Shown here: piece by piece, positions 2,876 through 14,935 of the stretch
How the letters are laid out: each line of letters starts with the position of its first letter
Position numbering within the stretch: the first letter of the stretch is position 1
The notes under the pieces: model-generated
Told to the model about the DNA's origin: nothing
Database searches by the model: none
Seen by the model: the letters and a program-made list of their open reading frames with translations, nothing else
Assembly: GCA_028343845.1 (NCBI GenBank)
Contig: JAOLZO010000014.1
Coordinates: 1-58,477, forward strand
Length of the DNA: 58,477 nucleotides
DNA from: Verrucomicrobiota bacterium
GTDB taxonomy: Bacteria > Verrucomicrobiota > Verrucomicrobiia > Opitutales > Seribacteraceae
Direction of reading: 5' to 3'
Position numbers and translations under genes: made by a program

Positions 2876-2927
2876 TTGGGTGGTGGCGAGACCCGGAATC
2901 GAACCGGGGACACAAGGATTTTCAGTC
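2876..2927. repeat. attL: 52-bp direct repeat, partial tRNA-Phe 3' end
   Basis: The segment is identical over 52 bp to 14884-14935, which includes the 3' 47 nt of the intact tRNA-Phe gene (anticodon arm, variable loop, T arm, acceptor 3' strand, CCA). Here the match breaks off at 2928, inside the anticodon arm, so this is not a functional tRNA. This is the usual signature of a tyrosine-recombinase element that integrated into a tRNA gene. The surrounding gene-free stretch 2521-3106 shows nothing else except a short hairpin (agagg-tttt-cctct) near 3034. Confidence 0.92.
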
Positions 2928-3106
2928 ACGTATATATAACTATAAATAGCCAGATACAGCTCGATTCTGACAAATTTAGGGATTATTTTTCCAAAACACT
3001 GTTTTTCAGCAATTGGGTGAGCTGAGGGAAGAGGTTTTCCTCTCCGGAGGTGTTGGGTGTTTTTGGTTAAAAAATGTTAATTGATTCTAATTAGCTTGCT
3101 TGATTA

Positions 3107-4414
3107 TTACTTTGGAGACTTGAACTCCAAACAGCATTTAATTTCTTTCTTAAGCATTTCAGTTTGTTCGACGGAAATTGGATTTCTCAGAAAACGAAGA
3201 TAAAGATTACTCAGCTTGAGCAAAGGTTCGAAGTTCTTGATTTTATTGTTAACCAAGTTGAGATAGGTAAGCTTATTCAAATTGGATAAAGGCCGGACAT
3301 CAAAAATTCGGTTTGAACTGACAGAAAGGTATTTCAAGTTCTGAAGTTCTGACAAAGCCCTTATGTCTATGATTTTATTCCCCCAAATTTTGAGTGTAAT
3401 TAAATTCTCGAGCTTCTTTAAAGGATAAATATTAGACAGTTGGTTACTGGATACATCCAATTCTTCCAATTTGCTTAACTTGTTCAACGAGCTGAGACTT
3501 TCCACATCGTTAAAACTCAAATCAAGACTGATTAGATTTTTAAGTTCTGATATTGGGATAATATTGCGGATTTTGTTTTTGGATAAATTAATACCTTTGA
3601 AGCAAGAGATATTTCCTTCATTTATTCTGAGCAGTTCTTGCAAATCGGAATCACGAAGGCTCAAGTTTTCAAGAGTTATAAAGGTTTTCTTTTCGCTTAA
3701 AGCTTTTACAACAAGTTCTTGTGCAATTCTTATTCTGTTTGAATCAATTGAAACCTTGATGGTGCTACCTATTTGCTTTTTTTCGCAGCCTTCAAGATTT
3801 TGAGCTTTGAGACTTTTCTTCTCAGACTTAAACTTTGTTTTGAACTCCTCAACAAGAGTAGCTTTTTCCGCATGCTTTTTGTCGGCACGCATCCATCCAG
3901 AGCAACCTTTTTGAGGGCAACCCCAGTAAACTGTAGACTTTGTTTTCTGTATTAGTTTGTTTCCGCATGTTGGACAGCTGGGAGTGGTCGAATCCCCGAT
4001 TAATGCATAATCTAATAATTCTTTAAGGTTTTCTTTACAAAGCGAATTAAAGCGTGAGACCAGTTCATAATTAGAGAGAAGCTCGATAGGTGTATCTTGG
4101 GCGAATTTTTTTGCAGGATTTGTAAAACTCGAGGTTGTAGCAAATAAACCATTTTCGATACCCTTTTTGGTGATTGCACCGTAGAAATCACGAACTTGCG
4201 ATTCTGCTACTTTTTGTTTTTGAGACTTACACTGAATGAGGGTTACGGCATCTTTGCTCTTATCACGATAAAGCTCAATATCTATGCCTCCGTCGGGACC
4301 ATTGCCAGTTTCTTTTGCTTTGAAACCCCTAAGCTCAAAATACTTTGCTACAACTTCTTCAAAGCGTTTCCACTCAATCGCCTTAAGCAAAGCTGTATTC
4401 CAAAGTAGTTTCAT
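3107..4414 (-). CDS. Mrr-like restriction endonuclease fused to zinc ribbon and leucine-rich repeats
   Basis: 435 residues from the ATG at 4414; the in-frame extension to 4540 is low-complexity and crosses the divergent gene, so it is rejected. Residues 10-120 form an Mrr-type restriction endonuclease domain with a PD-(D/E)xK core: GPDGGIDIE (D45) and IQCK (Q61-x-K63). Residues 147-171 form a four-cysteine zinc ribbon (C147, C150, C166, C171) like those of topoisomerase I. Residues about 250-412 are six to seven 22-residue leucine-rich repeats of SDS22/internalin type (LDLSFNDVESL, LDVSSNQLSNI). A cytoplasmic DNA-cleaving enzyme is expected from the first domain; the LRR would be a recognition or regulatory surface. 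It is AT-rich and divergent from 4544-5932. Role in defence is inference. Confidence 0.87.
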   Translation of the reverse strand: MKLLWNTALLKAIEWKRFEEVVAKYFELRGFKAKETGNGPDGGIDIELYRDKSKDAVTLIQCKSQKQKVAESQVRDFYGAITKKGIENGLFATTSSFTNPAKKFAQDTPIELLSNYELVSRFNSLCKENLKELLDYALIGDSTTPSCPTCGNKLIQKTKSTVYWGCPQKGCSGWMRADKKHAEKATLVEEFKTKFKSEKKSLKAQNLEGCEKKQIGSTIKVSIDSNRIRIAQELVVKALSEKKTFITLENLSLRDSDLQELLRINEGNISCFKGINLSKNKIRNIIPISELKNLISLDLSFNDVESLSSLNKLSKLEELDVSSNQLSNIYPLKKLENLITLKIWGNKIIDIRALSELQNLKYLSVSSNRIFDVRPLSNLNKLTYLNLVNNKIKNFEPLLKLSNLYLRFLRNPISVEQTEMLKKEIKCCLEFKSPK

Positions 4415-4433
4415 TCGGACCAACCAACCACGC

Positions 4434-4480
4434 CCGCCCCGTGCAGTCAAGCGGGAGGATTGGCTAGCGGATGGTTGACT
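4434..4480. repeat. Dispersed inverted repeat R2, copy b
   Basis: The reverse complement of 2474-2520 (45 of 47 bp). It fills part of the 129-bp intergenic region between the divergent Mrr-LRR gene (start 4414) and CoiA-like gene (start 4544), 64-110 bp upstream of the latter. Confidence 0.8.
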
Positions 4481-4543
4481 TAGCCCTGCGGGGGTGGTTG
4501 GGTGGGGGGGGTGGAAACCCCGGCGCGCACGATTGAACATGTC

Positions 4544-13584: not shown

Positions 13585-13669
13585 GCCGCCGCCCTTGGTT
13601 CGACGGTGAATCGGTCCCGCACCTAATGATCAAGAGACCAACAAAGAGTGAGGGCAAGCTAACTTTCAT
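13577..13669 (-). CDS. Possible 30-residue leader peptide overlapping the zinc-repeat nuclease gene
   Basis: A short frame MKVSLPSLFVGLLIIRCGTD, about 30 residues long, whose TGA overlaps the ATG of the next gene by 8 bp. Its start codon and leader are the same repeat (R1) that covers the start of the left-edge MORN gene. It may be a translation-coupling leader or a remnant of a lipoprotein signal peptide. No family is recognised. Confidence 0.3.
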   Translation of the reverse strand: MKVSLPSLFVGLLIIRCGTDSPSNQGRRHG

Positions 13670-13707
13670 ATCCCGATGCAAGCACCTCTTTGGGTGAGGG
13701 TCAAGGG
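13664..13707 (-). repeat. Dispersed repeat R1, copy b
   Basis: Matches 330-373 over 44 bp with about 6 mismatches. Here it overlaps the end of the integrase gene and runs to an ATGAAAG start, as in copy a. Confidence 0.6.
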
Positions 13708-14744
13708 ATGGTAGTGCTCGCTGTTATAGAAAAGTACTCTCCCGCCTCTGCCTCAGTCCTCCCCGTGTCGTTGTAGTGGGCCTCGAACACTTTTTCGCTC
13801 GTGTGTCCCATCAAGCGCATGGCCCACTCCTTACCTCCATACCAAAGTCCATAGGTGCCAAATGAATGACGGGCTACATCGTGAGGGTAGAGGATACCCG
13901 CTTGCGTGCACGCACGCTTACGATGTTTGGCAAAGGTACGGTAATCATTTATAGGGCCGTCAAAGGGCACGAACTTTCCAAACCGATCGAACCCCGCCAT
14001 ATCCTTGTACTCATTTATCCAAGTCCAGAGATTCTCGGGCAGGTTGGTGAGCTTTCGATTCTTTCGCGTTTTCGAAGAAACGCCCTCGATAATGATCAAA
14101 TCCTTTTGTGGGTACACAAGTTCCCACTTGATTCTAGGAACTTCATAGGGGCGTATTCCCGCAAAGAGCATTAATGCCATAGCGGCCTTGTATCCGTCCG
14201 GCATAGCTTCCATCAAATCCCCAGCCTCCCGAGGGTCTAGTGATTCAACAAGCTTTTCATCCTCTAGCTTGGATTCCCAGGTAATCTTATAAAAGTTCGT
14301 TTCGCACTTTTCGTTTTCAAAACACCAATTCAGAAAGCCACCGACTTCGGAACGAGTGGTCTTCCTGGTAGTCTCCGTCTTTCCCGTCAGGATATATTCC
14401 TTGAAAATCTTACGGGTAATCTTGGAAAGTCGTGCATTTTCCATGACCTTGACGAATTTATTGCACTTACTCCTCCTCGAGGTGACTGTCTCTGGTCTAG
14501 CTCCTCGATCAATTAGAGCTTCTAAGTGAAGCTTCAGGACTGTATCGAGGCGGATTGTATTGTTGGGAGATGCTCTATCTTCCCCTGATTCTATTGGCTG
14601 AACTAGTTCCTTCCTGTACTCGTAAGCTTGATTGCGCGAAGGGAAGAACTTTCTCTTGCGTTTTCCCTCTAAAAAAAACTCCAAGCACCAGTGGGAAAAA
14701 CCTTTTTTCTTAAGCTTCTTGTCCTCGTATACCCTTGTTTTCAT
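13701..14744 (-). CDS. Tyrosine recombinase (site-specific integrase)
   Basis: 347 residues from the ATG at 14744; ATG at 14768 and TTG at 14801 are possible longer starts, but they run through the TTTTGACA repeats. The N-terminal ~60 residues are a basic arm-binding-like region, followed by a core-binding SAM-like domain (~65-150) and the catalytic domain. Visible catalytic residues: Arg in MLFAGIRPYEV, HDVARHSF (H-x-x-R), LMGHTSEKVF (GH), and the Tyr nucleophile in EAHYNDTG. The gene lies 140 bp from the intact tRNA-Phe and reads away from it. It should catalyse integration and excision at the 52-bp att repeats. Confidence 0.93.
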   Translation of the reverse strand: MKTRVYEDKKLKKKGFSHWCLEFFLEGKRKRKFFPSRNQAYEYRKELVQPIESGEDRASPNNTIRLDTVLKLHLEALIDRGARPETVTSRRSKCNKFVKVMENARLSKITRKIFKEYILTGKTETTRKTTRSEVGGFLNWCFENEKCETNFYKITWESKLEDEKLVESLDPREAGDLMEAMPDGYKAAMALMLFAGIRPYEVPRIKWELVYPQKDLIIIEGVSSKTRKNRKLTNLPENLWTWINEYKDMAGFDRFGKFVPFDGPINDYRTFAKHRKRACTQAGILYPHDVARHSFGTYGLWYGGKEWAMRLMGHTSEKVFEAHYNDTGRTEAEAGEYFSITASTTIP

Positions 14745-14800
14745 TTTGACAAATTTTGACAAATCCATTCCAAAACACCGTATTTTGACAGGTTTTGACA
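14744..14800. promoter_or_regulatory. Four TTTTGACA repeats at the integrase start
   Basis: TTTTGACA occurs at 14744-14751, 14754-14761, 14783-14790 and 14793-14800: two pairs, each with 10-bp period (one helical turn), pair starts 39 bp apart. The array sits between the integrase start and attR. Candidate arm-type integrase sites or an autoregulatory operator. Confidence 0.55.
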
Positions 14801-14883
14801 ATGTTTTTCGGGTAACTTAAGTACACTTGTTAACACTTAAAAACACTCTGCACTACTGATGTATAGTGGTCTTAAGTGGATTT

Positions 14884-14935
14884 TTGGGTGGTGGCGAGAC
14901 CCGGAATCGAACCGGGGACACAAGGATTTTCAGTC
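14884..14935. repeat. attR: 52-bp direct repeat within intact tRNA-Phe
   Basis: Identical to 2876-2927. The left part (14884-14888) is outside the tRNA; the rest runs from the CCA end to the anticodon arm of the tRNA-Phe gene. The bases flanking the match differ on both sides (14883 versus 2875, 14936 versus 2928). Confidence 0.92.

Follow-up and report, generated by a model that had tools for sequence, protein, structure and literature searches.

What kind of element has entered the tRNA-Phe gene of an uncultured marine bacterium of the Verrucomicrobiota, and from which parts was it assembled? The window analyzed here is the whole 58,477-nucleotide stretch of contig JAOLZO010000014.1 (assembly GCA_028343845.1, order Opitutales), and the element within it, 12,008 bp when the interior is counted with one repeat copy, lies between two copies of a 52-bp direct repeat at 2876-2927 and 14884-14935. 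It is probably a chimeric, nonautonomous, satellite-like integrative element that was built of temperate-phage parts and inserted by its own tyrosine integrase (Int). The evidence consists of the attachment repeat, an empty site in a relative, an arm homologous to that of phage attachment sites (attP), and phage fragments in the interior. For a mobile element of an uncultured marine lineage, these results fix the borders to the base and supply an empty site and a donor phage group; they also link tRNA islands to virus contigs through a common integrase, attP, and leader DNA. Literature searches found no published account of the window element.

Borders and empty site

A sequence-only reading of this DNA had proposed an element integrated in tRNA-Phe, and the features on which it relied are all present. 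The 52-bp repeat is perfect (52/52), and a whole-assembly search (2.50 Mb, 107 contigs, 64% complete) found these two copies and none further at E 0.001. The right copy extends, on the minus strand, from inside an intact tRNA-Phe (GAA) at 14889-14964 (minus strand; called by ARAGORN, with Rfam RF00005 in agreement at 73.8 bits) to 5 bp beyond its 3' (CCA) end. The left copy, also on the minus strand, is a displaced 3' part of tRNA-Phe, and since the 52 bp correspond to tRNA positions 30-76 and 5 bp more, this copy ends within the anticodon stem, consistent with the break that had been placed in the anticodon arm. An open reading frame (ORF) for a tyrosine recombinase (13701-14801) lies beside the intact end. 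GC content is 43.6% in the interior, 50.9% in the left flank, and 53.5% in the right flank.

An empty site in related genomes had been named as the check on these borders, and one was found. We searched 57 genomes, among them the source genome itself, for tRNA-Phe; matches occurred in 56, and many of these were to other tRNAs. Then 20 stretches were fetched from tRNA-Phe and integrase matches, and the 3' flanks of the 12 with an intact tRNA-Phe were compared. In G024, a genome of the same genus, a single uninterrupted tRNA-Phe on a short contig is contiguous with both outer flanks of the window element. Between its tRNA 3' side and window 2641-2875, 146 of 218 aligned positions agree (67%). 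This alignment scores 128, where 500 shuffles reach at most 80 and 493 other places in the window at most 82; the element's inner end scores 28 against the same side. On the tRNA 5' side, 78 of 84 bases match window 14936-15019. Over the last 35 bases, G024 matches the left flank of the window at 28 positions and the other 11 of the 12 loci at 7 to 17.

A similar arrangement is seen for a related integrase. G008 has an integrase fragment at a contig edge (51% over 46 amino acids [aa]) beside an intact tRNA-Phe, and another contig edge holds a half tRNA-Phe. In the flank of this half, 29 of 35 positions agree with the intact-tRNA locus of G014. From these alignments, we read G008 and G014 as a second occupied/empty pair.

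Integrase and attachment arms

The int gene (13701-14801, minus strand) likely starts at the ATG at 14743, judging from comparison with phage genes. Its product matches PHROG integrase (1.5e-27) and Pfam Phage_integrase (4.4e-6, slightly below the curated cutoff), and residues R217, K244, R311, H333, and Y343, which we take to be the catalytic ones, are invariant in 5 of 5 alignment rows. Among 372 genomes of the order, 7 have a relative at E 1e-25 or better, the source genome being one of them. The closest of them (59%) lies beside the tRNA-Phe of G001, and no second border for it was found on the 43,960-bp contig.

Viral relatives were confirmed at 66 loci in viral_contigs (IMG/VR); in the phages collection, Int has no match at E 1e-10. 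The nine nearest viral integrases (L114-L121 and L126) are 49-58% identical to Int and the next one 39%; those of L114 and L120 are identical to each other and those of L115 and L116 nearly so. A tree was built from 40 integrases, namely those of the window, of 8 of 10 other Int loci, and of 31 of the 66 viral_contigs loci. In it, the window, G001, and the nine virus integrases form one clade with support of 100/100, a value that applies to the clade as a whole, the window branch being long (0.57). On each of the nine nearest virus contigs, the int match is preceded, at a distance of 108-152 bp, by 46-59 bp of the tRNA-Phe 3' half; in the stretches fetched from them, ARAGORN found no complete tRNA, as attP would predict. 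When part of the ORFs on two of these contigs was scanned with profiles, L114 was found to encode terminase and portal, L119 to encode portal, tail fiber, and terminase, and both to have a DnaB-type replication module.

The homology extends into the attachment DNA. On the integrase side, nhmmer with a profile built from seven P arms of phages finds the P arm (14744-14883) at 14747-14883 with E 7.6e-18. It holds TTTTGACA exactly four times (14744, 14754, 14783, and 14793), in two pairs 10 bp apart; the 58-kb window has one further exact copy outside the arm. At the other end, the inner left (P') arm (2928-3000) contains one arm-type-like site, TTCTGACA at 2965, and the TATAAA and TTCTGACA motifs stand at offsets like those of the phages. 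Anchored against seven phage P' arms, it scores 27.4, where 7930 positions of the element, sampled at every third base on both strands, have a mean of 8.0 and a standard deviation of 4.4, with one position exceeding 27.4. This arm is the weaker of the two: an nhmmer profile of the P' arm misses it, and the anchored test is the sole statistical support there.

Phage fragments inside the element

We searched the element interior against nine whole virus records and G001. Matches to the virus records comprise int and two other places only, 10719-10918 and 12070-12206. The first, on the minus strand directly upstream of the primase gene, consists of about 168 bp of intergenic DNA and 11 codons (MANPFDNSQLA) and corresponds to the leader of a phage late gene. 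It matches L119 at 72% over 204 bp and L115 at 71% over 205 bp, and L118 in part. In the phages, the leader belongs to a conserved protein of about 600 aa, encoded two genes after portal in L119; profile searches gave this protein no identity, and we therefore do not call it a capsid. Against L119, the intergenic part scores 160, where 300 shuffles have a mean of 63 and a maximum of 97. The alignment is nearly gapless, and the intergenic identity of 72% between window and L119 compares with 77-79% between L118 and L115 or L119 and 57-68% for most other phage pairs. In the window, the MANPFDNSQLA codons open a leader ORF of 23 codons, whose stop overlaps the ATG of the primase. By a consensus scan, promoter-like and terminator-like sites are rarer in the element than in its shuffles, and the scan was uninformative on the leader. 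Relative to int, the leader is inverted, and with respect to the portal piece it is out of order; given the inversion, plain deletion of a prophage is not enough to explain the arrangement.

The second fragment is a decayed portal remnant of 137 bp (12070-12206, plus strand), in which portal residues 509-523 and 564-594 lie in two frames, with a frame change and about 40 codons gone between phage and window (tblastn 2.6e-9 and 4.9e-11; 2e-12 one-to-one). When the noncoding gaps of the element were compared with phage ORFs, this remnant was the best translated match (4.9e-11). A match on the opposite strand of the remnant came next (5e-5), and the leader followed with 1e-4 and 9e-4; in the right chromosomal flank, which offers a larger target, nothing was better than 0.003. 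A portal query over the 57 genomes matched the window remnant only. By similarity, Int, the attachment arm, the leader, and the portal remnant are temperate-phage DNA.

A 24-bp identity at 12089-12112 was considered as a captured packaging site and rejected, because translated comparison shows a longer decayed portal piece around it. Synonymous codons there are wholly kept in three phages (rank 12 of 763 windows).

Replication and cargo genes

The sequence-only reading had described a primase-type gene, no structural or transfer genes, and mostly nuclease/protease cargo. The primase is borne out: the 427-aa product of 9399-10682 (minus strand) is a PrimPol-type enzyme (Pfam BT4734-like_N, 1e-11; PADLOC RTasVirE-PriCT2, 2.8e-16), and its DxD motif is invariant in 4 of 4 alignment rows. 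It has no confirmed relative in viral_contigs and two partial matches in the phages collection. As to structural and transfer genes, no intact terminase, portal, capsid, or tail gene was recognized in the scanned element ORFs and no relaxase or conjugation gene in their Pfam, PHROG, and NCBIfam scans, in keeping with that description; what it overlooked is the phage link provided by the portal remnant and late-gene leader. The view of the cargo is right for three or four genes and fails for two proteins of 528 and 139 aa, in which no function was recognized.

At the left end, a gene at 3107-4540 (minus strand, with a probable start near 4414) encodes an Mrr-type restriction endonuclease with leucine-rich repeats (Pfam Mrr_cat, 8e-30; LRR_4, 1e-20; PADLOC PDC-S02, 1.6e-18). 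To our knowledge, this fusion is an unusual pairing, and the protein could be a sensor nuclease. It is followed by a DUF6035/DUF7830 protein (Pfam; 4502-5932, plus strand) with a CoiA-like nuclease domain and a MORN-like C terminus that resembles MORN-type proteins of relatives. The 528-aa protein (6156-7742, plus strand) has a CxxCH motif, no match in Pfam, PHROG, NCBIfam, or PADLOC, and no relative in the other 56 of the 57 genomes. Next to it, a trypsin-like protease is joined to an FGE-sulfatase domain (7708-9210, plus strand; Pfam Trypsin_2, 1.7e-27; FGE-sulfatase, 3e-48). A search for a diversity-generating retroelement template, which would be a repeat with adenine-specific mismatches, found none for this gene: the 196 bp at its end occur only once in the genome, which is 64% complete. 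The 139-aa lipoprotein-like ORF (11105-11524, minus strand), part of which is duplicated at 11013-11078, has no family match in the Pfam, PHROG, NCBIfam, and PADLOC scans. Finally, a 450-aa zinc-finger/endonuclease-like protein (12232-13584, minus strand) shows weak similarity to PHROG endonuclease VII (2.8e-9) and has neither a relative in the other 56 of the 57 genomes nor a confirmed one in viral_contigs; its single-sequence fold was too poor (mean pLDDT, 38.8) and was discarded. Judging from their domains only, the nucleases of the element are probably defense genes.

Related primase-integrase loci

A primase profile (E 1e-15) has matches in 20 of the 372 genomes. In 12 of these, the match is confined to the N-terminal part of other frames, most of them larger, while the remaining 8 genomes have nine loci with full, split, or broken primase copies: the window, G021:C1, G011:C43, G014:C36, G294:C109, G021:C9, G023:C11, G241:C1, and G167:C9. 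A tyrosine integrase is encoded on the fetched stretch at seven of the nine loci (not G014 or G167), the match in G241 being weak (3e-4, then 2.7e-9 with an extended profile), and a split, duplicated, or half tRNA occurs at six. The tRNA is tRNA-Phe in the window and in G011, where a half copy was all that was seen. In G021:C1 and G294, the primase has FGE-type genes nearby. The window element belongs to this recurring type of primase-integrase locus, and the class is already known.

The targets differ among these loci. G241:C1, from a different family of the order, has an island of about 15.9 kb at tRNA-Asn with a 46-bp repeat (1063693-1079577). The sibling element in G021:C1 (30817-45747, about 14.9 kb) lies at tRNA-Arg with a 41-bp repeat and encodes, between int and primase, a protein of the excisionase/HTH_17 type. 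There, the displaced 41-bp piece is a 5' fragment of tRNA-Arg, and the DNA upstream of the intact gene is new. In G010 (C22 and C10), the native tRNA-Phe locus retains the 5' part only, and the intact tRNA-Phe is on another contig, near a weak integrase match (28%). We interpret both, from the layout of the tRNA pieces, as elements on the tRNA 5' side.

Two further loci, G021:C9 (about 33501-52565) and G023:C11 (about 34401-52540), have an element of about 18-19 kb that splits tRNA-Thr(CGU) in the anticodon loop, with the 15-bp repeat ATCTCATTCGTAATG, and that also carries a complete tRNA-Thr(CGU) distinct from the split one, its end overlapping int. They come from two species with left flanks about 87% identical; two large blocks of the elements are 95% and 99% identical and the rest 90% or unalignable. 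The same int-tRNA overlap is found on virus contig L140, and both elements encode the last 47 residues of the ~600-aa phage protein, 96% identical to L140. By analogy, they look like cases of tRNA-dependent lysogeny, as described in the available text of PMC10865867, in another phylum.

Origin and state of the element

The border suggests how the element would have arrived: attP would have recombined with tRNA-Phe in or next to the anticodon loop, where the exact cut is placed from the observed border, and integration would have restored the tRNA on the integrase side while leaving the displaced 3' half at 2876-2927. The element most likely persists as a chromosomal island. Were it still mobile, it would be excised by Int and replicated by its own primase and would need a helper phage.

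The alternatives differ in how they account for the phage DNA and for the repeat itself. Could the element be a decayed, immobile prophage, from which big deletions took the phage genes and into which host-type genes entered? The portal remnant, frame-shifted, shortened, and in prophage orientation, the partial duplication in the 139-aa gene, and the loss of one left-arm site all speak for such decay. However, simple deletion would not produce a leader that is both inverted and out of order, Int and primase remain open frames, and the primase family is seen again in further tRNA islands whose integrases differ, so that we lean against this account while regarding it as a serious possibility. 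A sharper form of the satellite-like reading, in which the element is a currently active phage satellite with helper-driven excision, a leader-driven primase, and packaging by the helper, strikes us as doubtful. It draws on the integrase, attP, and leader common to element and phages, on the excisionase/HTH_17-type protein of the G021:C1 sibling, and on the leader itself, nearly gapless and at 72% near the identity of the L118 comparisons and above that of most phage pairs; integrase and primase are also among the PICMI core genes, along with an AlpA regulator, according to the available text of PMC10803314. Yet no helper prophage was seen in the 57 genomes, where the portal query found the window remnant only, no packaging gene was recognized, and the portal fragment is plainly decaying.

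That the element is instead a phage-independent island or mobilizable element with a borrowed phage integrase, moving by conjugation, vesicles, or transformation, seems unlikely: its cargo is not phage-like and the scanned ORFs include no phage packaging gene, but neither was a relaxase recognized in the three profile scans, and the leader and portal pieces would be left unexplained. An unrelated duplication of the tRNA as the source of the left repeat is hardly credible. We found no point in its support, and it is contradicted by the empty site in G024, by the integrase and phage-like P arm at the other repeat copy, and by the phage-like offsets of TATAAA and TTCTGACA in the left arm.

The satellite-like reading, which we prefer to these accounts, has several observations to contend with. 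The orientation of the portal piece is that of a plain prophage and is also compatible with decay. No second copy of the element was found in the 57 genomes when relatives of Int, primase, and the 528-aa and 450-aa proteins were sought, and two exact end patterns of the element (22 and 27 bases) have no match in viral_contigs. The left arm has one of the two arm-type sites present in phages, and excision may therefore be weak; moreover, no excisionase- or AlpA-like/HTH gene was found in the scanned ORFs of at least 60 aa. Finally, G016 is 95% identical near the tRNA over 140 bp, yet its left flank is unlike that of the window (14/35); the 3' side of the tRNA-Phe gene is therefore variable, and G024 is the single locus that provides the empty site.

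A broader proposal is that the related loci represent an undescribed family of primase-carrying phage satellites of 12-19 kb in marine Opitutales and relatives, with a constant primase and a changing integrase and tRNA target, and that the window primase is wired to the leader of a helper's structural gene, so that replication follows the helper's late program. We consider this improbable as a whole. If true, the primase-bearing tRNA islands of the order would be a further satellite-like lineage; the leader-primase fusion makes the path from helper late program to element replication a specific, testable idea.

Comparison with known systems

In its architecture, the element agrees with the islands of the Islander description, as far as its available text goes (PMC4383910): an intact tRNA, a displaced 3' fragment in the same orientation, an internal tyrosine integrase, and a border on the anticodon side. 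The fragment is in direct orientation with the integrase between, as Islander demands, and we found an uninterrupted site in a relative, added here beyond the Islander filters, at 1 of 12 tRNA-Phe loci (G024). In that collection, 3' fragments are the commonest class (3760 of 3919 islands), and anticodon-type sites are a main class (2083 islands). Unlike those islands, the window element is in an uncultured marine relative of the Verrucomicrobia and contains phage portal and late-gene fragments.

The tRNA-Phe phages of IMG/VR (L114-L121 and L126) have in common with the element the integrase (49-58%), the same tRNA-Phe 3' half as attP, and a homologous P arm, and three of them have a leader homologous at the BLAST level. 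In contrast to the scanned phages L114 and L119, the element lacks an intact terminase, portal, and DnaB-type module and carries a different primase; of what an intact prophage would hold, only the 137-bp portal remnant and the late-gene leader were found. Its ORF scans likewise gave nothing that would make it an integrative conjugative or mobilizable element.

Like PICMI and other satellites, as presented in the available text of PMC10803314, the element is small, with one integration site, integrase and primase, defense-like cargo, and no structural genes. It has the integrase and primase that mark satellites of the PICI/PICMI type there, though the primase is of another family, BT4734-like in the element and DUF3987/DUF5906 in the PICMI model. 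Unlike PICMI, no AlpA, Fis, or TerS was recognized in the element ORFs, the AlpA-type regulator having been sought in scanned ORFs of at least 60 aa. Tycheposons offer another parallel, which we draw from the available descriptions (PMC10872708, PMC10803314): these are also tRNA-bordered elements of aquatic bacteria with a tyrosine recombinase and cargo. However, they are known there from Prochlorococcus and Methylophilaceae, and their cargo is metabolic.

Surroundings of the element

The neighborhood of the element varies as well. Window 15020-18697, to the right of tRNA-Phe and with fiber/FGE-like genes, is absent in G016 and mostly absent in G024; a second variable block therefore adjoins the element. 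Two imperfect repeats connect outside and inside, a 47-nt inverted repeat (96%; 2474-2520 and 4434-4480) and a 45-nt direct repeat (87%; 329-373 and 13663-13707), the first position of each pair being outside. Directly to the left, window 1-2483 has MORN-repeat genes; genes related to these are also found near tRNA-Phe in G021:C62 and G014:C43, at distances of about 1 kb and about 6 kb, respectively.

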